From Pleurocapsa minor GSE-CHR-MK 17-07R (GTDB taxonomy: Bacteria; Chloroflexota; Anaerolineae; Aggregatilineales; Phototrophicaceae), in contig JAHHHY010000001.1 of NCBI GenBank assembly GCA_019359125.1, forward strand, positions 496,001 to 560,000: a DNA stretch of 64,000 bases, written 5' to 3'. A program made the translations under genes and the position numbers. The notes beneath the pieces were generated by a model. The model had not been told where the DNA came from. It ran no database searches and saw only the letters and a program-made list of their open reading frames with translations. The stretch's first letter is position 1. Each line of letters begins with the position of its first letter. Below are positions 15,145-28,613 of this stretch, piece after piece.

Positions 15145-16034
15145 TACTTGATTGCTCCCGCTGTGAGTCCGCGAATAAGCTGTCTGGAAAACAAGATATA
15201 GAGCAGGACGATCGGGATCATTGACAATGTCAGTGATGCCAGCACCGCATTCCAGTCATTCAGGAATTGACCGAGGAAGGTTTGTGCGCCCAAAGTCACT
15301 GTCTTGACAGACTCTGCAGGTGCCAGAATGAGTGGAAACCAAAGGTCATTCCAGACCGGAATCATGTTGAAGATGAGCACCGTCCCCAGGGCCGGTCGCA
15401 CCAGCGGCAGGACCAGCAGAAAGATTCGATACTCGCTTGCGCCGTCTACACGGGCTGCATCTTTCAGATCGCTTGGCACCTGGCGCATAAAGTTTGACAG
15501 CACAAATACGGCTAATGGCAGGCCGGATGCTGTGTACACTAGGATCAGACCGATATGGGTATTGATAAGCCCAAGGTCCACGATCAGTCGCAGCAGGCTG
15601 ACCGTGCCAAGGCGAATAGGAATCATGATGCCCAGCGAGAAATACAGCCCAAGGATCGTATTTCCACGGAACTTGTATTCGGTCAGGGCGAACGCCACCA
15701 TCGCCCCCAGGACCATAATCAATACCAGTGTGCCCATCGTAATGACGAGGCTGTTGAAGAAGTAAAGCGGAAAATTACCCCTGCTGAAGACAGTCTCATA
15801 TCCGATGAAGCTAAATGTCTCTGCTGTAGGAAGCGCATAGGGATTCCTGAAAATGGCCTGTCGTGCCTTGAACGAATTCAGGATGACCAGGATGACCGGA
15901 AATACAGCCAGTGCGGTGTATAGAATCAGGATGATGTGGGTGGCAATGCGTTGAATTGTTCGGCCAAAGAACTGACCGAATCGGCGTGGCGCGAGTTTGC
16001 GCGCAGTCAGGGTCGTCATCGGCTTAGAACTCAT
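15144..16034 (-). CDS. Sugar ABC transporter permease, MalG/LacG type
   Basis: This 296-residue inner-membrane permease has six membrane segments. The EAA loop, which contacts the ATPase, reads KDAARVDGASEYRIF followed by LLVLPLVRP. An N-terminal basic stretch precedes the first helix, and the protein ends RQLIRGLTAGAIK, as usual for this family. It overlaps the upstream permease gene by 11 nt. The second Met (residue 6) is an alternative start. The ATP-binding subunit is not in the window, so a shared MsmK/UgpC-like ATPase is probably used. Confidence 0.92.
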   Translation of the reverse strand: MSSKPMTTLTARKLAPRRFGQFFGRTIQRIATHIILILYTALAVFPVILVILNSFKARQAIFRNPYALPTAETFSFIGYETVFSRGNFPLYFFNSLVITMGTLVLIMVLGAMVAFALTEYKFRGNTILGLYFSLGIMIPIRLGTVSLLRLIVDLGLINTHIGLILVYTASGLPLAVFVLSNFMRQVPSDLKDAARVDGASEYRIFLLVLPLVRPALGTVLIFNMIPVWNDLWFPLILAPAESVKTVTLGAQTFLGQFLNDWNAVLASLTLSMIPIVLLYILFSRQLIRGLTAGAIK

Positions 16035-16959
16035 ACTGCCGCAGACGTGCCTGTATGCCGAGGAGATACACCACGACGCCGGTCAGAATAATCATGAACA
16101 TGATGCCTGCCACGGCAGCGCCCATGGTTGGGCTGGGTGGTGTGAGCTGGAAACCAAAAAATGTGCGGTAGAACAGAGTGCCCAGCAGATCGGTAGAGAA
16201 ATTTGGCCCTGCCAGCGCGCCCTGCATGGTGTAAACAAGATCGAATGCGTTGAAATTGCCCACGAACGTGAGCACGCTGACGACGCCAACGGTCGGAAGA
16301 ATCAGCGGGAACTTGATGCGCCAGAAGACGCCCCACGACGTAGCGCCATCCACGCGCGCCGCTTCGATGACCTCTTCAGGGATGCCGATGATGGCCACGA
16401 GAAACAACATCATCGGGATACCGACAAACTGCCATACGCTGATCAGCCCCAGCGTGTTCAGGGCCGATTCTGGCAGCCCCATCCATGGCGCTGCATCCAG
16501 GCCCACCAGGCCAAGCACGTCATCGGCGATGCCCCATATAGGATTCAGGATGATCGACCATATAAACCCAACCAACACGAAACTGAGGACTGTTGGCGTG
16601 AAGATCAGCGTGCGGTAGATGGCCCCTGTCCGCCGTGCAACACCCGCAAGTAGCGTGGCCAGCAGTAGAGCAATCGGATTCTGCACGAGCATGTGAATCG
16701 CAAAAAAGCGCACGTTGTTCTGCAGCGCACCCTGCACCCGCGGGCCAGAGAACTCACTCGTCAGCAGGGTCTGATAATTCTGGAAACCGACAAAGGTTTC
16801 TTCCTGCGGGCTTTCAGGATCTGGCGCAAACAGGCTGAGGCGCAAAGAATCAAAAAGCGGATAGACCATAAAGACGGTATAAATCAAAAAGGCCGGAGCC
16901 AGAAAAACAATAATATGCGTCGGGAATTTACGACGCGGGCCTCGCGCTAGCACACGCAT
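16024..16959 (-). CDS. Sugar ABC transporter permease, MalF/LacF type
   Basis: I place the start at the ATG at 16959, giving 311 residues (MRVLARGPRRKFP...), because a GGTGGT ribosome site lies just upstream and the region further up is occupied by a stem-loop. The frame itself is open to an ATG at 17010. Six membrane segments are evident, and the EAA loop is IEAARVDGATSWGVFW followed by RIKFPLILP. It pairs with the MalG-type permease encoded next. Length is normal for the family, unlike the 656-residue permease of the rightward operon. Confidence 0.9.
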   Translation of the reverse strand: MRVLARGPRRKFPTHIIVFLAPAFLIYTVFMVYPLFDSLRLSLFAPDPESPQEETFVGFQNYQTLLTSEFSGPRVQGALQNNVRFFAIHMLVQNPIALLLATLLAGVARRTGAIYRTLIFTPTVLSFVLVGFIWSIILNPIWGIADDVLGLVGLDAAPWMGLPESALNTLGLISVWQFVGIPMMLFLVAIIGIPEEVIEAARVDGATSWGVFWRIKFPLILPTVGVVSVLTFVGNFNAFDLVYTMQGALAGPNFSTDLLGTLFYRTFFGFQLTPPSPTMGAAVAGIMFMIILTGVVVYLLGIQARLRQYEF

Positions 16960-17001
16960 AAGCACCACCCTGATTACGAAGACCTGAGGATTCTGGTGCG
17001 A

Positions 17002-17046
17002 GGAAGGCACCCCCGAAATTTAATCCCTTAGCCGGGAGTGCCTTCC
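17002..17046 (-). other. Stem-loop between binding-protein and permease genes
   Basis: GGAAGGCAC (17002-17010) pairs perfectly with GTGCCTTCC (17038-17046), with partial extension inward. It begins 13 nt after the binding-protein stop and has no U-tract. Such structures often protect the upstream mRNA or reduce read-through, giving more binding protein than permease. Confidence 0.65.
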
Positions 17047-17058
17047 ATTAGTTCAGAA

Positions 17059-18345
17059 TCAGCCGCCCTGCTGCGGCGCGTACCACGCTTCCAGACCAGC
17101 CTGAACCGTATCGGCTGCTTCCTGGGCCGTGATTTCCCCGTTCAGCAAACGCGCACTGTTGGTCCACAGGTCGGTTTCGTTATTGGGTTCACCGCGCGAC
17201 AGAATCTGGTAGGACGAGCGAATGGTGCTCTCGCACTCTCCACGCCAGTCCAGCATTTCCTGTGCCAGCGCGTTATCCAGCGTGACCGATGCGTTTGACA
17301 GCGAGAAGAAGCCGGGCAGCGCGTTGGAGTACAGCGAAGCGAACTCTTCTGACGCGACCCACGACAGGAAAGTGCGTGCTGCTTCAGCGCGTGCCGGGTC
17401 AGAGATGTTGCCGTTCAGGCCCATCGCGATGTCTGTGTGGTCGCTGATGTAGCACTGTTCCTGTCCATCCGGCACGGGCGGGCGGAAGGCGCCAATTTCA
17501 AAGTCGGCCTGAGCTTCAAAGCCCGAGATTTCCCACGAACCGGTCGGGTAAATCGCGCCAAGGCCAAGCGTGAACGCGCTCTGTGCGTCCGGGTAGGCGA
17601 TGCCTTGATAGTTATCGATCAGGTAAGGCGTCCAGCGCGACAGCGCCTCGAAAGCGGCCAGGAAGCCCCCTTCATTGTACTTGGCGGTGCCATCAATCAG
17701 GCCAAGTCGGCCTTCTTCACCCATCCAGTAATTCGGGCCGATATTCTGGAAACCCATGGTCGCGGATTCCCATTGATCAGCGGTGCCCATCACCAGCGGC
17801 GCATAAGTGCCATCAGCCTGAATGGCGTCGAGTACTGCATAGAACTCGGATTCCGTCGTCGGTTCTTCAAGGCCCAATGCGCTAAACGCATCGGTGTTGT
17901 AGAAGAACCCATGAATGACCGAGGCCATCGGTACGCAGAATACATCTGCGCCATCGTCGGTGATCCATGCGCTCTTTGCCACATCGCTGAAGTTTTCCAT
18001 GCCGGCCAGGTCATTCAGGGAAGCCAGATTGCCTGCCTGGAACAATCCGAGCGACACGTCGAAGGGACGGCAGGTGATCAGTTCACCGGCAGTGCCACCC
18101 TCCAGCTTGGCGTTTAGGGCAGCATTGTATTCGGCGGGTGCAGATGGCGCGAATACAACCGGAATATCCGGATACTGCGCGTTAAAGGCCGGAATCAGGA
18201 CATCCTGCCAGATGGTGATGTCGTCGTTACGCCAGGATTCGATGACGATGGGGTCCATTTGCGCCGAGGTAAGCGCAGCCGGGGCGAGGAGCAGGCCGAG
18301 TATGCCGCTGGCAGCGAGAAGCCCTGTGAGCTTGTTTTTTGTCAT
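17059..18345 (-). CDS. Extracellular sugar-binding protein of ABC transporter
   Basis: I start the protein at ATG 18345 (428 residues), where AAAGGAAT gives a good ribosome site and a signal peptide begins at once (MTKNKLTGLLAASGILGLLL, cleavage after TSAQ). Upstream Met codons to 18438 add a polar stretch that would bury the signal. The rest is a family 1 solute-binding protein: IVIESWRNDD, IPAFNAQYPDIPVVF, and TRAEAARTFLSWVASEEFAS near the C-terminus. No lipobox Cys is seen, so it may be free or anchored otherwise. It is the first gene of the leftward operon. Confidence 0.9.
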   Translation of the reverse strand: MTKNKLTGLLAASGILGLLLAPAALTSAQMDPIVIESWRNDDITIWQDVLIPAFNAQYPDIPVVFAPSAPAEYNAALNAKLEGGTAGELITCRPFDVSLGLFQAGNLASLNDLAGMENFSDVAKSAWITDDGADVFCVPMASVIHGFFYNTDAFSALGLEEPTTESEFYAVLDAIQADGTYAPLVMGTADQWESATMGFQNIGPNYWMGEEGRLGLIDGTAKYNEGGFLAAFEALSRWTPYLIDNYQGIAYPDAQSAFTLGLGAIYPTGSWEISGFEAQADFEIGAFRPPVPDGQEQCYISDHTDIAMGLNGNISDPARAEAARTFLSWVASEEFASLYSNALPGFFSLSNASVTLDNALAQEMLDWRGECESTIRSSYQILSRGEPNNETDLWTNSARLLNGEITAQEAADTVQAGLEAWYAPQQGG

Positions 18346-18451
18346 GATGGATTCCTTTAAGTAATTCATCTTGTCAGATTTAATTTGCAGCGATGGGTGG
18401 GGAGTGGGATCGCTAGCGATGCTCCTTTCGTCAGCCATGTGACTGAATCTT

Positions 18452-18633: not shown

Positions 18634-18663
18634 GAGATAGTAAGTTTACTTAACTAACTATCT
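18634..18663 (+). promoter_or_regulatory. Candidate operator (inverted repeat) downstream of the promoter
   Basis: AGATAGT and ACTATCT form a perfect outer inverted repeat around TAAGT-TT-ACTTA, giving a nested imperfect palindrome with AACTAA half-site flavour. It sits at about +5 to +35 of the predicted transcript. The ROK-type repressor of the same operon is the natural candidate binder; this is inferred from position only. Confidence 0.5.
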
Positions 18664-18704
18664 TGCAGAGATCAGATGGCTTTTTTGATGGGAGAAATTA
18701 CGCA

Positions 18705-19952
18705 ATGAAACGTACGGCGCTTTTTGCATCTGCACTTGCGGCATTGACCGTCCTTGTCGCTCCCGCAGCGGCACAGGATCAAACGCTGGAGGTCTACATC
18801 ACAGGCCTCACCGAAGACACGCTGGCATGGTTCAACACCGAAGCAGCCCCGGCATTTGAAGCGGCCCACGAGGGCGTCAATGTTGAGGTCATTACTGGCG
18901 GATGGGGTGACTTCGACGCGACCGTCGCTGGCTGGATTACCACTGGTGATGGCCCTGAAATCGTCTACCTTGGCTCTGAATATGCGGCCACTTACGGACG
19001 CCTGCTGGCTGATATCTCCTCGTATGTGACCGAAGAAGATCTGTCTGCATTTCTGCCGATTGCGGTCGAAACTGCCAGCTGGGATGGTGCGCTGCGCGGC
19101 TTCCCTCTGCTGATGAGCCCCCGCCCCACCTTCTACCGCACCGACCTGGCTGCGGATCCTGCCGCTGTTCCCCCTCTGACCTTTGCTGATGCGCTGTCGT
19201 TTGTGGCCGCCAACAGCAACGTGGTCGACGGCGCCATGACTCAGATGGGCTTCATGGACATCGGGAGTGGCCTGTTCGATGCTCAGGAATTCGTTGCATA
19301 CATCTGGTCTGCTGGTGGCGAGCTGTATAACGAAGATGGCAGTAGCGCATTCGACAGCGCCGCCACTGCCGAAGCCCTGCAGTTCATGTACGATCGTCGC
19401 CGCATCATGATGCCGAATGAGAATACCGCTGGCCTGCCGCCGTTCGAAGGCACGCCGATTGCATCCAATCTCGTTGTCAGCGGTATCTTCCCGATGTGGA
19501 ACATGCCAGCAACCAGCGATCCGCTGTGGGAAAATATCGCGATTGCCCCCTACCCCGCAGGCGCAAATGGTGAGCCAGTTGTGCAGGTGTTCATCGACTG
19601 GCTGTCAGTGCCTGCCTATGTGGAAGATCCGGCTACGGCGGTCGAATTCCTGAAGTTCATCACCAATCAGGAAAATGCAGTCGCGCTGAGCACTGTTGCA
19701 GGCTTCACGCCTACCCGCACAGATGCCTGGGAAGACCTGCGTGCGAGCAACGCGGTGTGGGACCAGCTGCTGGAAGTCGCCGTGGAATATGGTCGTCCGT
19801 TCTCGGACATCCGCGCCAGTGCCGAGCTGCGCCCCCTGATTACCGAGCAGGTCACGCTGTTCCTGACCGACCAGCAGAGCCTGGAAACCACCCAGCAGAA
19901 TCTGAAAGACGAGTACGACGCGATTCTGGAAGATAACGGTTACCTCGGCTAG
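18705..19952 (+). CDS. Extracellular sugar-binding protein, rightward operon
   Basis: The ATG at 18705 follows a GGGAGA box and starts a signal peptide (MKRTALFASALAALTVLVA, then PAAAQ), giving 415 residues. The mature part is a family 1 solute-binding protein: PAFEAAHEGVNVEVITGGWG, VYLGSEYAATYGRLLADIS, and the C-terminal helix VTLFLTDQQSLETTQQNL. It is the first gene of the operon whose later genes encode N-acetylhexosaminidase and NagB-II, so an amino sugar or its oligomer is the inferred ligand. A strong stem-loop follows the stop codon. Confidence 0.9.
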   Translation: MKRTALFASALAALTVLVAPAAAQDQTLEVYITGLTEDTLAWFNTEAAPAFEAAHEGVNVEVITGGWGDFDATVAGWITTGDGPEIVYLGSEYAATYGRLLADISSYVTEEDLSAFLPIAVETASWDGALRGFPLLMSPRPTFYRTDLAADPAAVPPLTFADALSFVAANSNVVDGAMTQMGFMDIGSGLFDAQEFVAYIWSAGGELYNEDGSSAFDSAATAEALQFMYDRRRIMMPNENTAGLPPFEGTPIASNLVVSGIFPMWNMPATSDPLWENIAIAPYPAGANGEPVVQVFIDWLSVPAYVEDPATAVEFLKFITNQENAVALSTVAGFTPTRTDAWEDLRASNAVWDQLLEVAVEYGRPFSDIRASAELRPLITEQVTLFLTDQQSLETTQQNLKDEYDAILEDNGYLG

Positions 19953-20070: not shown

Positions 20071-22041
20071 ATGGATGTCGCCGCGCAGGCTCGCCTTGAT
20101 AATCTGCTGTGGGCAGCAGCTACCGTAATTTTCATCGCTGCTGGCAGTGTGCTGCTGGGGCTTCTGGCCCGCGGCGGGGCACGTCTGGCCCGGCTCAGCG
20201 ATGCCGAGGGGCGCAAAATCTTCTGGGGCGTCTTCTTCGCATCTCCCTGGATTATTGGCTTCTTCATTTTCGTCGTCGGCCCTGCCCTGGCCTCTTTGCT
20301 GTACAGCTTCACTGACTACAAGCTGGGCGATTCGATGAATTTCGTCGGCCTGGATAATTATCGTGAGCTGCTGCTGGGCGAAGGCGCACACGGTCGTCGT
20401 TTCGCAGGGGCCATGTACAACTCTTTTTACTACGCAATTATCGGCGTTCCCCTGCAAATCCTGACCGCGCTGGCGATGGCTTTGCTGCTGAATCAGGCAC
20501 TGCGCGGCGTCAGGTTCTTCCGTCTCATTTTCTACCTGCCCGTCATCCTGGCTGGCGGCCCGGCGATTCTGCTGGCCTGGCGCTACATGCTCGCTTCCAA
20601 TGGCGGTTTTATCAACGAAGCCATGTCCGCCGCTGGCAATGCTTTTTTTCTGTTCGACTGGCTGAAACGCACGTTTATATTTCTGGTCGAAGGCTTCAAC
20701 GGCTTTTATTCCGGCATTGTGCGCGGCGATCCGATTGGTCCGCTGAAATATTTCATTCCAGCACTGATCGCAGTGCTTTTCCTCTCGACGATGCTGCGCG
20801 GTGAATGGTCTGATAGTCGACGCAGCCGCCTGCTGCGGGTGTCTGAAATCGTAGGTGCTGTGCTGGGCATGGTGCTGGTCGCGCGCGGCCTGATTGCCCT
20901 GCCCATCGACCCCTTCCTGATCGTAGGTATCGGATTGATTTTGGCCGCTGGGGCGCTGTCAGCCCACCGTAATGCCAGCCCTCGCGCTGCAACGGCTTAT
21001 CTGGTCAGCGGTATCGTACTGAGCGTTGGCGCCGCGCTGATGGCGATTGCCACCCCATCCGCCGAAGATGGCAGCGCATTCTCCGCCCTGCCCTATTTGC
21101 TGGCTTCTGCACTGGTTGCAGCTGTATTTGCAGGCGCACTGGTAGCAAGTCAGGCCCGCCGCGCGAGTGTTCTGCTCATTGGTCTGGCCGCAGGAAGTCT
21201 TGCTGTGCTGGTCCATCTGTCTGCCGGACAGTTTGATCAGGGCCAGCTGGGACTGATCTTTCAATACCTCACGTTCCAGTCGGCAATTGCCCAGCCCGGA
21301 GACCTGGCCTACCTGCAGGAGACATTCCCGCAGGCCAGCCTGTCAGCCTTCTGGATCTGGGGCGGCATGATCGCCTTTTTCGGGGTATTGATTGCACTGA
21401 ACGGAGGCAATGCAAAGCTCCAACGTTGGTTGATCGTCGGAGGCACGGTCGTATTTGCGCTGCTGGCAGTGAACTCGCTGCTGGATACCCTCCGTTATTT
21501 CTCCGCGTTCAATGACGTGGCCGCTGCTGCCGGTGTGCAGAATTACCATTTCTCGCTCTTCAGGCAGGCGACGCAGGTCTTTCCTGATTCGCAGCGCGTT
21601 CCGTTGTGGATGTCCAGCGAATTATGGTCGAAGCCTTCGCTCATCCTCATTACCATGTGGAGTTCCGGCGCCGGGATGCTGATTTTCCTGGCCGCGTTAA
21701 AGGGCATTCCGCGTGTGTTCTACGAGGCGGCCGATGTCGACGGGGCCAGCCGCGTGCAGCAGTTCTTCAAGATCACGCTGCCGCTGATCTCACCAGCTAT
21801 GTTTTACAACATCGTCATTGGCGTCATCGCCGCGTTGCAGACGTTTGAATCGATCTACATCCTGCAAACGCCCACGACCCAGGACAGTCTCGCTTCTGCT
21901 GCTTATTTTCTGTTTGTGCGCACCTTCCGCCAGCTTGCGATTGGCGAAGGTGCAGCTGTGTCGTGGATTCTGGCAGCCATCATCGTGTTCCTCACGGTTC
22001 TGCAATTTCGTTACAGCCGCTGGGTCAATTATGAATCGTAA
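20071..22041 (+). CDS. MalF-type sugar permease with a large polytopic insertion
   Basis: The protein has 656 residues, about twice the usual ~300. The outer parts are a normal MalF-like permease: WGVFFASPWIIGFFIFVVGP, MYNSFYYAIIGVPLQI, FFRLIFYLPVILAGGPAILL, then WMSSELWSKPSLILITMW, and the EAA loop YEAADVDGASRVQQFF followed by KITLPLISP. Between residues ~185 and ~510 lies an extra block with roughly eight hydrophobic segments that typical homologues lack. It replaces the short loop after GGFINEAM. An even number of added helices would keep the topology. A short extra N-terminal helix is also present. No frameshift is visible and the frame is intact. Confidence 0.85.
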   Translation: MDVAAQARLDNLLWAAATVIFIAAGSVLLGLLARGGARLARLSDAEGRKIFWGVFFASPWIIGFFIFVVGPALASLLYSFTDYKLGDSMNFVGLDNYRELLLGEGAHGRRFAGAMYNSFYYAIIGVPLQILTALAMALLLNQALRGVRFFRLIFYLPVILAGGPAILLAWRYMLASNGGFINEAMSAAGNAFFLFDWLKRTFIFLVEGFNGFYSGIVRGDPIGPLKYFIPALIAVLFLSTMLRGEWSDSRRSRLLRVSEIVGAVLGMVLVARGLIALPIDPFLIVGIGLILAAGALSAHRNASPRAATAYLVSGIVLSVGAALMAIATPSAEDGSAFSALPYLLASALVAAVFAGALVASQARRASVLLIGLAAGSLAVLVHLSAGQFDQGQLGLIFQYLTFQSAIAQPGDLAYLQETFPQASLSAFWIWGGMIAFFGVLIALNGGNAKLQRWLIVGGTVVFALLAVNSLLDTLRYFSAFNDVAAAAGVQNYHFSLFRQATQVFPDSQRVPLWMSSELWSKPSLILITMWSSGAGMLIFLAALKGIPRVFYEAADVDGASRVQQFFKITLPLISPAMFYNIVIGVIAALQTFESIYILQTPTTQDSLASAAYFLFVRTFRQLAIGEGAAVSWILAAIIVFLTVLQFRYSRWVNYES

Positions 22042-22092: not shown

Positions 22093-22998
22093 ATGAGCAC
22101 TCTACAGCACACGCCCGATCTGAGCGTCAATGTCAGGCCCGGCAGGCGTGCGCGCTATCGCCTGAACCTGGATGCCCGCTCTATCGTGTTCTATGCCATT
22201 CTGATCGCCTTCTCGCTGTTTTTTCTGTTTCCGCTGGTGTGGATGGCGGGCACATCGCTGAAATCCATTGAAGAAGTGGGCCGCCCGCAGCTCAGCCTGC
22301 TGCCAGAGGTGCCGCAGTGGTCCAACTATGGCAACCTGTTTGCTGACCCCAGCTTTTATCGCGCCTACGTGAACAGCATTTTCGTAGTGGTGGTGACCCT
22401 GGTGGGCACCGTCGGATCCATCAGCTTTGTCGCTTATGCATTTGCGCGGCTGGAGTGGCGGGGACGTAATCTGGTCTTCGCGCTCATGCTCGGCACGCTG
22501 ATGCTGCCCGCCCAGGCGACGCTCGTGCCGCAGTATGTGCTGTTCTATAACCTCGGCTGGATTCGAACGTTTAATCCCATCACCATTCCCGGATTTTTCG
22601 CAGGCGGCGCAGCGATGATTTTCCTGCTGCGTCAGTTTATGGTCGGCATCCCGAAAGAGCTCGATGAAGCCGCGATGATCGACGGCGCGAATCCGTTACA
22701 GACCTGGTGGTACATCATTCTGCCGCTCTCCCGTCCTGCCATCGCCACGATTACCGTGTTTCTGTTTGTCGGCCTGTGGAACAATCTGATTAACCCGCTG
22801 CTGTATCTGCAGAAGGCGGAGCTGTTTACCATGCCTGTCTTTGTGGCTGGCAAGTTCAACTTGCAGGAATCGCCCATTCCCTGGCAAACCATCATGGCGG
22901 CCAGCGTCACTTTTGTGCTGCCTGTGCTGGTGATCTTCATGTTTACGCAGCGCTTTTTTGTGCAGGGTATTGCAGCCACTGGCGGCAAAGAGGGATAA
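22093..22998 (+). CDS. Sugar ABC transporter permease, MalG type
   Basis: This 301-residue inner-membrane permease has six membrane segments. The first is IVFYAILIAFSLFFLFPLVW and the EAA loop is DEAAMIDGANPLQTWW followed by YIILPLSRP. It ends TQRFFVQGIAATGGKEG, the standard family terminus. It follows the long MalF-type partner by 51 nt and precedes the GH3 gene by 5 nt. No ATPase gene is adjacent. Confidence 0.92.
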   Translation: MSTLQHTPDLSVNVRPGRRARYRLNLDARSIVFYAILIAFSLFFLFPLVWMAGTSLKSIEEVGRPQLSLLPEVPQWSNYGNLFADPSFYRAYVNSIFVVVVTLVGTVGSISFVAYAFARLEWRGRNLVFALMLGTLMLPAQATLVPQYVLFYNLGWIRTFNPITIPGFFAGGAAMIFLLRQFMVGIPKELDEAAMIDGANPLQTWWYIILPLSRPAIATITVFLFVGLWNNLINPLLYLQKAELFTMPVFVAGKFNLQESPIPWQTIMAASVTFVLPVLVIFMFTQRFFVQGIAATGGKEG

Positions 22999-23003
22999 CC
23001 ATC

Positions 23004-24527
23004 ATGCTGCAACTGATGCACACCTTTCCGGGGACAACTGCGCCCGCCGAGATTCTGGCAGCGGTACGCGCCGGCCGTATTGGTGCATTCTGCCTGTTCA
23101 ATTTTAACGTTTCGTCACCCAAACAACTGCGTGAACTGACGCACAGCCTGATGTCAGCCGCGGCTGAAGGTGGCCAGCCAGCGCCCATTATCGGGATCGA
23201 CCAGGAAGGTGGCCAGTTGATGGCCATCACCCACGGCGCAACCGCGCTGCCGGGCAACATGGCGCTGGGCGCGACACGCAGGCCAGACCTGGCCGAGAAG
23301 GCCGGTCGTGTGCTCGGTCGCGAACTGCTGGCGATGGGTGTCAATCTGAACTTTGCGCCGTCGGTGGATGTGAACAGTAACCCGCTAAATCCCGTCATCG
23401 GAATTCGTGCCTTCAGCGATGATCCGGCATTGGTGGGCGCACTGGGCACAGCCCTGATTGCGGGGCTGCAGGCCGAACGTGTCATCGCCACTGCGAAGCA
23501 CTTTCCCGGCCATGGCGATACTGGGACCGATACGCACTATTCTGTGCCCGTAGTTTCTCGTGGGCGGGATCAACTGGACGTGACGGAGCTACGCCCGTTT
23601 CGCGATGCTATTCAGTCTGGCGTTGGTGCAATTCTCTCCGCTCATGTGGTGTTCACAGTCCTTGATGATCAGCAGCCGGCGACGCTGTCGAAAAAAATTA
23701 TGACCGATCTGCTGCGCACTGAGATGGGCTTCACTGGCCTGACCATCACCGACGCCATGGACATGTATGCGGTATCGCGACATGGCCTGCAAAGCCTGCG
23801 AGATGCGATCAGCGCTGGCATTGACCTGGTTTTGCTGGGCCACTTGCCCAATCAGTTCGATCTGATGGATGCCCTTGATATGAAAGCATCCGCAGAATCG
23901 GATGTGCGTATCCTGAACGCAAGGCGTGCCTTGCCTCGTGATCTGCCTTCCCTGAGCGATGTCGGCTGCGCAGAACATCAGGCCATCGCCCAGCAGATTG
24001 CGGACGCAGCCGTGACTGCCGTGCGTGCCTCCGATCAGCTGCCTTTGCAGCCCGGATCTGACCAGAGCCTTCTGCTGATCGTGCCAGAGCTGGTTGATCT
24101 GACCCCTGCGGATACCAGCTCTGGCGTTGAGCTGTCACTCGCGGATGCGCTTCGACAGCGTGGGATGCAGATAACGACATTCGAACTGCCACACGAGGCC
24201 CAGGCAAACCATGTGGCGGAGGCGGTGGCGCTGGCTGATAGCGCGGACCTGGTCATCGTCGGTACCATTGCCGCCGATCGGCATAAGATGCAGGCTGAAC
24301 TGGTGAATGCATTGATTGATCTTGGCCATAGGCCGATTGTGATAGCTATGCGCACGCCTTTTGATATTGTCGCTTTTCCGCGTGTGGAGACCTATCTGTG
24401 CACGTATGGCGTGCGTGCGCCTAATCTTGAAGCTGCTGCCAGAGTCCTGTTTGGCGAGATTCAGGCGACGGGCGTGCTGCCATGCGCAATTCCGGGCATG
24501 GCACTGCCCAATCAGGTGACATTATGA
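23004..24527 (+). CDS. GH3 beta-N-acetylhexosaminidase, NagZ-like
   Basis: This 507-residue protein has the NagZ-type GH3 barrel. Landmarks are IGIDQEGGQLMAI, the signature KHFPGHGDTGTDTHYSVP (Lys165-His166; general acid/base His178 in the Asp-x-His loop), and nucleophile Asp250 in ITDAMDM. About 190 further residues form a GH3 C-terminal-like domain (VIVGTIAADRHKMQAELVNA) that short NagZ proteins lack. There is no signal peptide, so it acts in the cytoplasm. It would split GlcNAc from imported peptidoglycan or chitin fragments. It is 5 nt after the permease gene, and its stop overlaps the GH18 start. Confidence 0.88.
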   Translation: MLQLMHTFPGTTAPAEILAAVRAGRIGAFCLFNFNVSSPKQLRELTHSLMSAAAEGGQPAPIIGIDQEGGQLMAITHGATALPGNMALGATRRPDLAEKAGRVLGRELLAMGVNLNFAPSVDVNSNPLNPVIGIRAFSDDPALVGALGTALIAGLQAERVIATAKHFPGHGDTGTDTHYSVPVVSRGRDQLDVTELRPFRDAIQSGVGAILSAHVVFTVLDDQQPATLSKKIMTDLLRTEMGFTGLTITDAMDMYAVSRHGLQSLRDAISAGIDLVLLGHLPNQFDLMDALDMKASAESDVRILNARRALPRDLPSLSDVGCAEHQAIAQQIADAAVTAVRASDQLPLQPGSDQSLLLIVPELVDLTPADTSSGVELSLADALRQRGMQITTFELPHEAQANHVAEAVALADSADLVIVGTIAADRHKMQAELVNALIDLGHRPIVIAMRTPFDIVAFPRVETYLCTYGVRAPNLEAAARVLFGEIQATGVLPCAIPGMALPNQVTL

Positions 24528-25576
24528 AGCTGACGGGTTTGTATCGCGCTGTATTTGTCGGGCTGATAGCACTCAGCTCCGGCGTCGTCGTGGCTCAGGA
24601 GACACCGTCCGGTTGGTGCACCAGCGTGTGGTATCCGTCATCCACTGAGCCTGACGGACTGGACAGTATTCGCGCCCATGTGGACGCGATCGACATTGTC
24701 CATCCGTTCTGGTATTCGCCGCTGCCTGATGGTGGCCTGCAACGCCATGATGGCGCTGAAGACCCGGACATCCTGGCGCTGCTGCGTGAGGCGAATATTC
24801 TGGTGATTCCCAGTATTTTCGCCAGCGTCCCCACCATGCTTGCATCCGATGAAGCCATGATGACCCACATAGAGGTCATTACCTCGCTCGTAGAGCTTAT
24901 GGATTATGACGGCATCGATATCGATTATGAAGGTTTCCCGGCCAGCAACCGTGATGCCTTCAGTCTGTTTATCGAGCGGCTGGCAGACGCCCTGCATGCC
25001 AACGGCCGTCTGATTACGATTGCCCTGCATGCGAAAACGGATGATCAGGGCACCTGGGAGGGCCCGCGCGGCCAGGACTGGTCCAGAATCCTTCCCGTGG
25101 TCGATATCGCCAATCTGATGACGTACGACTACACCAGCAGGAACCAGCCGCCTGGCCCGATTGCACCCTCTCAGTGGATGGCTGACGTTGTAGGGTATGC
25201 CTCGCAGTTCACATCGCTGGACAAAATTCGGCTTGGCATGCCGTTTTATGGCTACTCATGGATGCGCGGCTCACCTCCGGCCACCACTATCTCGTATCGC
25301 AGTGTGATGCGCTGGGTGGACTCGTTCAATCTCGATACCTCGAATCGACATCAGCAGTCGCATGAGCTGCTGATTGAGCTGAGGGTGACTGGCCTGCCCC
25401 GCCAGAATATTGTGCTGAACGACGCTGCCTCCGTCGCCGATAAACTGGAGACGGTCATGAGTGCATATGCCGGGCTGGGCGGCGTGGCAATCTGGGGCAT
25501 AGGTGGTGAAGATCCCTCTACCTGGGATATCCTTTCGCGATATCATACGGGCATGTGCGCCTTACGAGATCGTTGA
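24524..25576 (+). CDS. Secreted GH18 glycosidase (chitinase / cortical-lytic type)
   Basis: The ATG at 24524 overlaps the GH3 stop (ATGA) and begins a signal peptide (MKLTGLYRAVFVGLIALSSG, cleavage near VVAQ), giving 350 residues. The mature part is a GH18 barrel: the catalytic motif YDGIDIDYEGF with acid Glu136, then ITIALHAKTDD, VDIANLMTYDY, and GGVAIWGIGGEDPSTW near the end. It resembles the YaaH/SleL branch of GlcNAc-specific hydrolases. It is exported and could generate the oligosaccharides that the neighbouring ABC system imports and the GH3 enzyme finishes. Confidence 0.87.
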   Translation: MKLTGLYRAVFVGLIALSSGVVVAQETPSGWCTSVWYPSSTEPDGLDSIRAHVDAIDIVHPFWYSPLPDGGLQRHDGAEDPDILALLREANILVIPSIFASVPTMLASDEAMMTHIEVITSLVELMDYDGIDIDYEGFPASNRDAFSLFIERLADALHANGRLITIALHAKTDDQGTWEGPRGQDWSRILPVVDIANLMTYDYTSRNQPPGPIAPSQWMADVVGYASQFTSLDKIRLGMPFYGYSWMRGSPPATTISYRSVMRWVDSFNLDTSNRHQQSHELLIELRVTGLPRQNIVLNDAASVADKLETVMSAYAGLGGVAIWGIGGEDPSTWDILSRYHTGMCALRDR

Positions 25577-25583
25577 ATGCTGC

Positions 25584-26744
25584 ATGAAATCATTTAAAGC
25601 CACTCGCGAAGGCCTGAAGCGTCATAACCGCCAGCTGGTGCTGCGCGCTGTTTACGAAGACGCCGCCAACAATCGCGCCGCACTGGCTGCTATTACCGGG
25701 CTGGCCAAGCCTACGGTTTCGGATATTGTCAGTGAGCTGATCGAGGAAGGCCTGCTGACCGAATCTGGATTCGGTGAGTCGGGCGATACGGGCGGCAAGC
25801 GCCCTACCCTGCTGCGCTTTGTGCCAGATGCGCGCCAGGTCATTGGTATCTCTGTGGAAGAACATCGTATATTTGGCGTGCTGTCGGACCTGACGGGATA
25901 TGTCAGCGTGCAGCACGTCATCGAACGTGACCAGTTTCAGCCCACAGAAATCATTGACCTGATCGAGGCCACCATCAACGGACTGGTGTCGCAGTTGTCG
26001 TCGCCCCTGCTGTGCATCGGTATAGGCGTTCCTGGCATCCTGTCTGAGACCCGTCAGTACCTTATTCAAAGCCCGTTACAGCAATTGGTCGAGTTTGCGC
26101 TGCCCCCTTATTTTGCTGACATGTACGGACGACCCGTTTACATCGGCAACAACAGTGAACTGGCCGCCTTGGCGCAGTTCTCGTTTGGCGTCACCGACAC
26201 TGATGACGCTGAAAGCCTCGCGTGCCTGATGCTGAACGAAAGTGTTGAGATCGGCATCGCATTTAATACGGCGGACTTTCATTACCATCAGGGGGGTGCA
26301 ATCGGCCGCCTTAAAATGGGCCTTCCTCACGAGATGCAGCCGCTGGAATCGCTGCTGGGCTGGAAGGCTGTGCGTCAGCACGTGCTGGAGCTGCGCGCAC
26401 GAATCGGGGAATCACAGCTTCCGGAGCATTTCACCTATATGCACCTGCGCTACGCGGCCCGGCGGGGTGATTTACTGGCGACGATGGCCGTCAACTGGCA
26501 TATGGAGCATCTGGCCCAGGTGCTGGCATGGGTGGTCAGCCTGTGGCAGCCCAGCCATGTCTCGCTTGCTGGTAAAGTTGTTGACCTGGGCGAGGAATTC
26601 CTGTCTGCCCTGATTGAGCTGGCGGCCCGCTATACTGACCATACGCTGCTTGCGCGCACCCGCTTTTCACTGGCCTATTCAAAAGACCTGAGTGCGCTGG
26701 GTGCGGTGGCCCTTGCCCTGCAAAATGAGCTGGATATCCTGTGA
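25584..26744 (+). CDS. ROK-family transcriptional regulator, degenerate
   Basis: The start chosen is ATG 25584 (MKSFKATREGLKRHNRQLVL), 386 residues; the frame reaches back to 25503 inside the GH18 gene. An N-terminal winged helix-turn-helix (RAALAAITGLAKPTVSDIVS) is followed by a ROK domain with GIGVPGILSETRQY. The ATP-binding signature D-x-G-G-T is absent (VIGISVEEHRIFG stands there), and the zinc motif C-x-C-G-x-x-G-C is missing. It is therefore a repressor rather than a kinase, and its ligand mode may differ from NagC or Mlc. It likely controls this operon. It overlaps the LacI-type sensor gene by 4 nt. Confidence 0.83.
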   Translation: MKSFKATREGLKRHNRQLVLRAVYEDAANNRAALAAITGLAKPTVSDIVSELIEEGLLTESGFGESGDTGGKRPTLLRFVPDARQVIGISVEEHRIFGVLSDLTGYVSVQHVIERDQFQPTEIIDLIEATINGLVSQLSSPLLCIGIGVPGILSETRQYLIQSPLQQLVEFALPPYFADMYGRPVYIGNNSELAALAQFSFGVTDTDDAESLACLMLNESVEIGIAFNTADFHYHQGGAIGRLKMGLPHEMQPLESLLGWKAVRQHVLELRARIGESQLPEHFTYMHLRYAARRGDLLATMAVNWHMEHLAQVLAWVVSLWQPSHVSLAGKVVDLGEEFLSALIELAARYTDHTLLARTRFSLAYSKDLSALGAVALALQNELDIL

Positions 26745-27595
26745 ACATACGGCCAATCGCCCTGCTTACCAATGATCCGGATGAGGTCTTTCAGCGCGGC
26801 GTGATCGCGGGCGCACTGGCCGCTGCACACATGCGCGGCTATGCGGTGCAGGTTTACACAATCCACGACCCTGTGCGTGATATAGATGCCATCGAGCAGG
26901 ATCTGAGAGCGTGTAGCGGCGCGCTGGTGCTGACGAATGTACTGCCCGATCCCCTGCTGCGCAGGCTGCGCGATACCCTGCGTCTGCCGGTATCGCTGGT
27001 AGCCCACATCGTGCCTGAACTCGATATCCCGGGCATCGCGTCAAACAACCGCCAGGGCATGGCGATCCTGATGGAGCATATCGTGGTCGCATGCCAGCGC
27101 ACCCGTCCTGTGTTTATCTGCGGTGATCTGAATCAGAATGATGGACGGGCACGTCGATTGGGGTTCGAGCTGGAAATGATGCGTTATGATCTGGATCTGG
27201 ATCAGCGCTATTTTATCCCTGGAGAATTCATCCCTTCAGTGGCCGCCGATGCGATGCAGCAGTTTCTGGAACTTCAGATTCCTTTTGACTCGGTGGTGGC
27301 GTCGGACTATCAGATGGGAATCGCTGCTTTAGCGGTGCTGCGCGAACGCGGCATTTCAGTGCCTGACGAGGTTGCCGTCATCGGCTTCGGTGACGGAATA
27401 GATGCCATTTCTGCCGGCCTGACCACGCTGGCCGCCGATATTGTGGATGTGGGAAAGCGTGGTATGTATCAGCTTTTCGGACAACTGGAAGGCCTTACGA
27501 TTCGCGGTTTAACTGTCCTGAATACGCATTTGATCGTGCGCGACACGACCATTCTTCGATCAGCAAAGGAGAGTCCCAATGCCCTCTCATCTTGA
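26741..27595 (+). CDS. Stand-alone LacI-type ligand-binding protein (no DNA-binding domain)
   Basis: The protein has 284 residues. The whole length matches the periplasmic-binding-like effector domain of LacI/GalR regulators: IRPIALLTNDPDEVFQRGVI, GIASNNRQGMAILMEH, RPVFICGDLNQNDGRARRLG, FDSVVASDYQMGIAALAVLR, and GISVPDEVAVIGFGDG. There is no helix-turn-helix in front of it and no signal peptide. The gene starts inside the stop of the ROK gene. I infer that it works in the cytoplasm as a sensor, perhaps acting on the ROK repressor. Being a remnant of a full LacI gene is the alternative. Confidence 0.75.
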   Translation: MNIRPIALLTNDPDEVFQRGVIAGALAAAHMRGYAVQVYTIHDPVRDIDAIEQDLRACSGALVLTNVLPDPLLRRLRDTLRLPVSLVAHIVPELDIPGIASNNRQGMAILMEHIVVACQRTRPVFICGDLNQNDGRARRLGFELEMMRYDLDLDQRYFIPGEFIPSVAADAMQQFLELQIPFDSVVASDYQMGIAALAVLRERGISVPDEVAVIGFGDGIDAISAGLTTLAADIVDVGKRGMYQLFGQLEGLTIRGLTVLNTHLIVRDTTILRSAKESPNALSS

Positions 27596-28613
27596 GACTG
27601 AAATCTATGCTCAGCCAGAGATCATTCAGCACCTGTTAGGTGCAGAGGCAGATAACATTGCCGCGATTGCCCGTGCGGTAAAGGCCTTTGACCCGGCCTT
27701 TGTCAGCATTGCTGCCCGCGGCACGTCAGATAATGCTGCTCGATATGCACAGTACGCGCTTGGTATTCATGTTGGCATGGCGGTCGCGCTTGCCACCCCG
27801 TCCGTCCACACGCTGTATGACACCTCGCCAAAGTTATCGCGTGCGCTGGTCATCGGCATCTCCCAATCCGGCATGTCGATGGATGTGCTGAGGGTTATCA
27901 CCGATGCCCGCCAGCAGGGCGCCCTGACAGTGACGATCACCAATAATCCCGATTCGCCGATGGCAAAGGCTGCGCATCATCATATTGCCCTGCATACCGG
28001 CGAAGAAATCAGCGTGGCAGCCACCAAAACCTATACCGCCCAGCTGACGGCCGTCGCAATGCTGGTGGCCGCGCTCTCGCCTAATGCTGCGCTTCAGCAC
28101 GACCTGGTAGCCCTGCCCAACTATATTGCGCGCACACTCGAGGCCTCTGGCCCGGTGGCCACATGGGCGGCAAATCACGCCGATCTGGCCAGTTTTGCTG
28201 CGCTGGGGCGTGCCTATAACTACTGCACTGCTATCGAAACATGCCTGAAAGTGCAGGAGTTATGTTCCATTCTTGGGCAGGGCTACAGTGAAGCAGATTT
28301 CCTGCATGGCCCGATCGCCATCGTCAATCCAAATTTCCCCGTCATCGTGTTTGCGCCAAAAGGCCCGGGCAGCAGCCAGATGCCAATCGTGCTGGCTCGG
28401 CTGAAAGAGCGCCAGGCCGAAGCTCTGATTATCACCAATGATGATGCCCTGACGGATGCGCCGTGGGTGCGCCTGCCTGATGCCCTGCCAGAATGGCTCT
28501 CGCCTATTGCCAGCATTATCCCGGGACAGCTGCTGGGCATGCATCTGGCCGTGGCGAAGGGCAAGCCCATCGACAAGCCGGTTGGCCTGAGCAAGGTCAC
28601 CATGACGATGTAG
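27579..28613 (+). CDS. SIS-domain amino-sugar isomerase/deaminase, NagB-II/AgaS type
   Basis: This 344-residue protein has two SIS domains like the isomerase half of GlmS, but no glutaminase domain. Motifs are AARGTSDNAARYAQYALG, VIGISQSGMSMDVL, SVAATKTYTAQLTAVAML and the C-terminal PVGLSKVTMTM, equivalent to the GlmS tail. Such proteins deaminate glucosamine-6-phosphate to fructose-6-phosphate (NagB-II) or act on related sugars. AAGGAGAG lies 5 nt before ATG. The start is 17 nt inside the preceding gene. It is the last gene of the amino-sugar operon and gives the route into glycolysis. Confidence 0.87.
   Translation: MPSHLETEIYAQPEIIQHLLGAEADNIAAIARAVKAFDPAFVSIAARGTSDNAARYAQYALGIHVGMAVALATPSVHTLYDTSPKLSRALVIGISQSGMSMDVLRVITDARQQGALTVTITNNPDSPMAKAAHHHIALHTGEEISVAATKTYTAQLTAVAMLVAALSPNAALQHDLVALPNYIARTLEASGPVATWAANHADLASFAALGRAYNYCTAIETCLKVQELCSILGQGYSEADFLHGPIAIVNPNFPVIVFAPKGPGSSQMPIVLARLKERQAEALIITNDDALTDAPWVRLPDALPEWLSPIASIIPGQLLGMHLAVAKGKPIDKPVGLSKVTMTM

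Follow-up and report, generated by a model that had tools for sequence, protein, structure and literature searches.

A recurrent variant of the MalF-type sugar permease with an internally duplicated, polytopic membrane insert

The insert-bearing permease

The window (the whole stretch of 64,000 nucleotides analyzed here) encodes, at 20071–22041 on the forward strand, a MalF-type (CUT1) permease with an eight-helix insert. The variant is real and recurs, and it differs from the known permease type by a polytopic insert that is internally duplicated. The frame begins with ATG, encodes 656 amino acids and has no internal stops. In a search of the whole genome (4.85 Mb in 23 contigs), the 656-codon frame matched itself, stop-free, as the single copy of an insert-bearing permease.

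The family assignment is based on Pfam, NCBIfam and PDB-sequence matches. BPD_transp_1 (PF00528) was found on the C-terminal half of the protein with 32.9 bits, above its cut-off of 26.4. The NCBIfam UgpA, GlcT and MalF models matched two stretches each, far below their equivalog cut-offs (80.5 of 335 bits for UgpA and 39.1 of 392 for MalF, among the best models), so that the protein is not placed in a named equivalog. The sequence relatives found in the PDB are CUT1 permeases, namely an “ABC sugar transporter permease” (7cad), SugA, AlgM1 and MalF. With CUT1 permeases of the MalF/UgpA/SugA type it shares six core helices, an EAA loop, a MalG partner, dependence on a substrate-binding protein (SBP) and an ATPase encoded elsewhere. 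The difference lies in the loop between core helices 3 and 4, which has 30–33 residues in three ordinary paralogues shown from the same genome (a fourth, L005, has more than 60), but 348 residues and eight helices in the window. There are 58 places in the genome that match the permease; where the two halves of a paralogue were matched separately, the DNA gap between them was at most about 300 bases (from a table read by eye), and none of these paralogues had a comparable insert.

The protein can be divided into core and inserted parts, all on the forward strand. Core part 1 (residues 1–172; 20071–20586) consists of an extra N-terminal helix and core helices 1–3, as seen by alignment; the own-genome paralogues align at residues ≈46–189. 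It is followed by the first half of a periplasmic extension (residues 173–219; 20587–20727, with a modelled helix at residues 193–217), the insertion proper (≈residues 220–492; 20728–21546) and the second half of the extension (residues 493–522; 21547–21636). Core part 2 (residues 523–656; 21637–22038) contains core helix 4, the EAA loop and helices 5 and 6, and is covered by BPD_transp_1 (residues 497–646) and by the UgpA and MalF models. The sequence of the EAA loop is EAADVDGA, and the intact core halves and EAA loop and the continuous frame described in the first-pass annotation were thus borne out.

Topology and models of the inserted block

A hydropathy scan of the block gave eight segments, at residues 224–242, 254–272, 274–292, 309–327, 340–358, 367–385, 425–443 and 453–471. 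At the same threshold, eight segments were found in the long forms L025 and L029, seven in L015 and L032, and four in each of the shorter, four-helix forms L024 and L036. AlphaFold2, run on the block alone with 15 sequences, gave a model with pLDDT 80.6 and pTM 0.69, in which eight long helices (residues 225–239, 248–275, 282–300, 304–327, 340–358, 361–384, 426–442 and 448–487) occupy places that match the hydropathy segments. The last of them, 448–487, extends well past the membrane. Both methods thus agree with the eight hydrophobic segments that had been proposed between the core halves from the sequence. In the model of the full-length protein the overall pLDDT was 61.7 and the core was poor, with values below 50 at residues 110–185 and 514–656, we think because the alignment was shallow.

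The positive charges are distributed very unevenly. Lys and Arg account for 30.8% of the residues in the putative cytosolic loops and for 6.6% of those in the outside stretches, with fractions of 0.28–0.36 in the four inside loops and 0.02–0.10 in the five outside stretches, and the inside value exceeded the outside value in all 20 non-redundant long forms. Judged by sequence, this is the pattern of a genuine membrane insert whose two ends are predicted to lie outside.

Borders of the insertion

To find relatives that lack the helices, the loop of one helix-free form served as the query against 298 genomes of the class. Of these genomes, 18 were positive: seven in the order of the window (Aggregatilineales), which had insert forms, and 11 outside the order, which had helix-free forms with open frames of 383–434 amino acids. 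The core helix 3–4 loop has 75–76 residues in all 11 helix-free relatives, compared with 241–251 in two four-helix forms shown. Because the helix-free forms resemble the window permease on either side of the insert, its borders can be set at ≈residues 220–492. This alignment against close sugar permeases revises the extent of ≈185–510 given in the first-pass annotation: the position between the core halves stands, while the borders move inwards, because residues ≈185–219 and ≈493–520 belong to the periplasmic extension that is also present in helix-free relatives. The helix-free forms adjoin an SBP gene in ten of the 11 cases (in the remaining one the contig ends), a MalG gene in all 11 (in L090, MalG is in two frames) and a GH3 gene in six, and they are likely to be the orthologues of the window permease in other Anaerolineae.

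Escherichia coli MalF, likewise of the MalF type, also has one periplasmic loop enlarged by a long insertion, and it had been suggested that its soluble insertion lies in this area. However, the part of the published description that we drew on places this insertion, MalF-P2, at residues 91–271 (PMC3150292), between core helices 1 and 2, whereas the loop of the window permease aligns to MalF residues ≈354–359, between core helices 3 and 4. The comparison thus concerned the wrong loop, and the P2 insertion is soluble where that of the window is polytopic.

Tandem duplication within the block

The block was divided into unit 1 (helices a–d, residues 218–330; 20722–21060) and unit 2 (helices e–h, residues 331–476; 21061–21498), and profiles of the two units from 18 sequences were compared with hhalign. 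The comparison gave a probability of 91% and a score of 42.2 over 101 columns. The highest score among 114 decoy windows of MalF core and MalG was 18.2; 60 block-permuted profiles reached at most 22.9, and reversed profiles 15.2 and 15.8. When single hairpins were compared, those in register (ab with ef and cd with gh) matched at 82% each, the out-of-register pairs at 2–34%, and pairs with a control hairpin at no more than 2.8%. At E ≤ 1e-3, the HMM of unit 1 found the other unit in 11 of 29 single sequences and that of unit 2 in 12 of 29; under the same threshold there were no hits among 29 reversed, 45 MalG and 50 core sequences. Self-similarity measured against simple residue shuffling was uneven (z from 0.0 to 5.7 in 20 sequences). 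The profile comparison with decoys was used because the shuffling control loses the hydrophobic pattern. By these comparisons the block is, as far as sequence can tell, a tandem duplication of a four-helix unit.

Occurrence of the insert

A scan of genome contigs yielded 14 loci from named assemblies, 12 from Chloroflexota and two from Deinococcota, all of which have the insert: the eight-helix form in the 12 and the four-helix form in the two. Within the order, insert forms were present in 29 of 154 genomes including that of the window, a count that takes in some fragments and one four-helix genome (G042). The sequences are not all distinct, as some loci and genomes are identical (e.g., L025 and L010). 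Among 400 genomes of the phylum, an alignment search gave matches in two, one of them by the flanks only, with five candidates per genome scored among the matches listed, which makes this result a weak guide to absence. In a further genome (G499; locus L095), the permease is split over two overlapping frames of 469 and 293 amino acids on a contig of 3.6 kb, which may reflect a frameshift or an assembly error.

The insert could in principle be an artefact of assembly or annotation, given that it occurs as a single copy in the window's genome, in an assembly of 23 contigs. The chance of this is negligible: the 14 loci come from differently named isolates, many other genomes have the insert at the same site, and dN/dS (see below) is far less than 1. 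The recurrence of the insert in the order and in every locus of the contig scan refutes the misassembly that the first-pass annotation had allowed for. The same annotation had also considered that the block might be a known variant shared by most relatives. The block is indeed common to relatives in the order, but an open-access literature search found no description of such an insert.

Four-helix forms and history

In the four-helix forms, helices c–f, which amount to one unit, are missing; in the window these inner helices correspond to residues 274–385 (20890–21225, forward strand) and are the least conserved part of the block. The four-helix carriers are the two Deinococcota loci and the one genome of the order, G042 (locus L093), in which a remnant of the b–c linker of repeat 1 (ending in APITGSWV) joins the f–g linker directly. 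In the sequence, this junction looks like a deletion scar.

A tree was calculated from the core MalF and MalG columns, excluding the insert, with 50 rows (45 of them different). The five outgroups were included without MalG, and the program warned of long branches among them. The eight- and four-helix forms made up one clade (support 100/99), with the 11 helix-free forms as its sister (91/73). The four-helix forms nest at two places within the eight-helix group, although several inner branches are weak, and they therefore look like deletions of one unit. Without the outgroups, constraining all 31 eight-helix rows to one clade was rejected (p-AU 0.003), whereas constraining the three four-helix rows together was not rejected (p-AU 0.18); the groups in these tests were defined by the trait, and the tests were run after the first tree had been seen. 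On this phylogenetic footing, loss of one unit, once or twice, is the best account of the four-helix forms. The four-helix permease of the Deinococcota loci L036 and L037 sits within the Chloroflexota group on the tree, and these copies are likely to have been acquired by lateral transfer.

Conservation and selection

Among 20 eight-helix sequences, the mean pairwise identity was 72–82% in the core, 57–60% in the periplasmic flanks, 42–43% in the outer helices, 41% in the f–g outside loop and 28% in the inner block. The dN/dS values from ten close pairs, several of which share members, were 0.005–0.057 for the core, 0.05–0.18 for the outer helices and loops, and 0.09–0.36 for the inner block (nine of the ten pairs; one could not be computed). 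Values from distant pairs were set aside due to saturation of synonymous sites. The block is under purifying selection, yet it changes more quickly than the core. At a threshold of 85% of the 20 long forms, the inserted helices hold no conserved charged, His or Asn/Gln position; when proline is included, the only positions within the helices as bounded that reach this level are prolines 224, 230 and 281.

Search for relatives of the block

The block of the window had no match in Pfam, and in NCBIfam there were two weak matches under the cut-off (0.008 and 0.034). Among 15 members of the block, Pfam gave Acyl_transf_3 in three (best 0.0014) and TgpA_N in two (0.0018), which we took as chance matches among hydrophobic proteins. 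A search against PDB sequences returned one weak match (0.78). A designed coiled coil matched a unit profile (3.3e-5 over 31 columns) and was likewise rejected, as a match of composition. No relative of the block was found on plasmids or phages, and no standalone copy among the matches in 61 genomes, in some of which only part of the initial candidates was scored. The model of the block gave no match at E ≤ 0.001 with Foldseek against the PDB. VIA-align reached at best a Z of 9.6, to generic helical bundles that covered mainly helices c–f. The search of the insertion alone against other membrane families thus produced no trusted family or fold match, and by sequence profile and model comparison the block appears to have no recognizable relative.

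The gene cluster and the probable substrate

The permease gene lies in a cluster read on the forward strand. Upstream, at 18663–19952, is the SBP gene (Pfam SBP_bac_8, 8.3e-20), which is also upstream of MalF in the relatives. Its true start is probably the Met at 18705, and the N-terminus has a plain Sec signal ending in APAAA-Q, with no lipobox. Downstream, at 22093–22998, follows a MalG-type permease of ordinary size (301 amino acids; BPD_transp_1, 2e-14, with the UgpE and MalG models under their cut-offs), so that both partners of a CUT1 permease, SBP and MalG, are present in the window. Every NCBIfam match in the cluster is under its curated cut-off. A NagZ-like GH3 β-N-acetylhexosaminidase (23004–24527; Glyco_hydro_3, 2.8e-74; NF003740, 194.6 bits against a cut-off of 207) has no visible signal peptide and is presumably cytosolic. 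It is followed by a GH18 glycosidase (24524–25576; Glyco_hydro_18, 2.5e-23) whose N-terminus reads as a signal and which is presumably secreted, and by a NagC-like ROK-family regulator (25587–26744; ROK, 4e-15; NagC model, 1.7e-22). Directly after it is a gene for a LacI-type sugar-binding domain (26741–27595; Peripla_BP_3, 1.6e-18), an arrangement that is the same in ten of the 14 relative loci. Pfam recognized no HTH or other DNA-binding domain in this protein, which is possibly a split or partner sensor. The next gene (27579–28613) encodes a SIS protein resembling the glucosamine-6-phosphate deaminase NagB-II (SIS, 1.9e-27; NF046059, 1.4e-63, 215 bits against a cut-off of 430).

The order SBP, MalF, MalG, GH3, GH18, ROK and LacI-like is complete in ten of the 14 loci, and GH3 adjoins MalG in 13 of the 14 as well as in the window. 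L026, L027 and L037 are cut off within the cluster by the end of the contig. The sequence of L032 starts at MalF, and the 2.4 kb available after GH18 contain neither a ROK nor a LacI-like gene. The four-helix genome G042 has SBP, MalG, GH3 and SIS genes, with no GH18, ROK or LacI-like gene within 14 kb, and in L096 no GH18 was seen. The cluster is also present in the Deinococcota loci L036 and L037 (one of them named Trueperaceae), where SBP and MalG are 70–72% identical to those of the window. No ATPase gene was seen in the window's cluster. The best ATPase of the PRK11650.1 family, which we take to be UgpC, is located 6.5 kb beyond the window (C22:566527–567615). Further upstream, at 16024–18438 on the reverse strand, there are a second SBP, also without a lipobox, and an ordinary MalF-type permease.

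The Streptomyces DasABC–DasD system, working with MsiK, imports (GlcNAc)2, which is then hydrolyzed inside the cell (PMC6167110). As far as the consulted part of that description goes, the two systems are alike in having an SBP, two permeases and a β-N-acetylglucosaminidase in one cluster and the ATPase elsewhere; in the window, the GH3 gene next to MalG takes the corresponding place. They differ in that the Das system is actinobacterial and has the regulator DasR instead of ROK, and the same part of the source mentions no membrane insert. By analogy of gene context, the substrate of the window importer is probably a GlcNAc-containing disaccharide, either chitobiose or a peptidoglycan fragment.

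Lipidation of the binding proteins

One role for the block would be to substitute for a lipid anchor and keep the SBP at the membrane. At the locus itself the contrast is striking: helix-free relatives pair with lipoprotein SBPs in all eight readable N-termini (of the ten SBP frames found, one is truncated and that of L042 has no signal at its start). The SBPs that go with eight- and four-helix forms are non-lipidated in all 15 readable cases (31 were found, the 16 others being cut or unclear). However, the contrast turned out to be genome-wide. Among the best 30 of the 35 SBP hits that the window's genome gave, a plain signal is present in 29, one has no signal and no lipobox occurs, while in three genomes with helix-free forms, 30 of 34 SBP hits divide into 24 with a lipobox, two with a plain signal and four with neither. 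In this survey, signals and lipoboxes were called by a simple rule of our own instead of a signal-peptide program. Ordinary permeases in the window's genome work with non-lipidated SBPs without any such block, and the lipobox contrast probably represents a single evolutionary event. The idea thereby loses most of its force, and we now regard it as improbable. Lgt was found in 61 of 61 genomes and LspA in 59, both being present in the window's genome; missing lipidation machinery is therefore not the reason there. The plain signals of the window's genome (L111–L140, 29 of 30) end before a Gln as judged by eye, nearly always as A-Q.

Role of the inserted block

We lean towards a reading in which the block is an accessory, non-translocating membrane domain of an importer for a GlcNAc-containing disaccharide, although we infer its role and position as well as the substrate; the helices, borders, duplication, ancestry, selection and gene context have computational support. 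On this reading, the importer is of the CUT1 type, depends on a binding protein and has the window permease as its MalF subunit. The first step, common to relatives throughout the Anaerolineae, would have been growth of the periplasmic stretch that joins core helices 3 and 4, from ≈30 to ≈75 residues; a four-helix membrane unit, now present as two tandem copies, would then have been acquired by the ancestor of the group to which the window belongs. The core, with its EAA loop for the ATPase encoded elsewhere and its MalG and SBP partners, would transport as usual. The inserted helices would lie beside it. There they would probably support the conserved periplasmic extension, or hold it in position, at the mouth facing the SBP, and also steady the complex in the membrane. 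ABC exporters such as TAPL have an ABC core with an additional membrane domain of an accessory kind, TMD0, which in TAPL is reported to be responsible for localization and partner binding (PMC6199259). This is an analogy only, since TMD0 is N-terminal and belongs to an exporter, whereas the block lies within a loop of an importer subunit. More tentatively, and with less than even likelihood, the block might regulate or dock a partner on the SBP-facing side, a mode that we have not met in descriptions of sugar importers.

The first-pass annotation had proposed that the block might serve in translocation, ligand sensing or as a scaffold. An added polytopic module fits the data, and the scaffold or accessory role is favored over a second path, because none of the charged positions is conserved and some relatives lack half of the block. 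Eight helices would suffice for a channel or a sensor, and the f–g outside loop keeps 41% mean identity; on the other hand, the inserted helices hold no charged position that reaches 85% conservation, the block has no trusted family or fold match, and the four-helix forms do without half of it, which makes a translocation or sensing module improbable. Rather less improbable, but still unlikely in our estimation, is a largely neutral growth, in which a duplication tolerated in a permissive periplasmic loop was kept for folding and brought no new function. Such growth would fit the low conservation of the inner helices (mean identity 28%, dN/dS up to 0.36), the absence of these four helices from three relatives inside the long-form group, and the lack of any such block in own-genome paralogues with readable halves. 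It is less easily reconciled with the fairly good conservation of the outer helices and periplasmic flanks, or with the finding that a query able to detect helix-free forms recovered insert forms in seven of seven cases in the order. The accessory reading, which we prefer, is in part a default, no family or fold having been recognized and the second structural comparison having covered mainly helices c–f; the loss of half of the block could mean that its role is specialized and not needed everywhere.

The core of MalF-type permeases, which are textbook transporters, is fixed, and the window permease shows a membrane module added to an ABC importer. It also appears to illustrate clearly how a membrane domain can grow through tandem duplication within a loop. 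The relatives provide a natural series with zero, four and eight extra helices, each beside the corresponding SBP and MalG genes, so that the effect of the membrane module could be tested by swaps.
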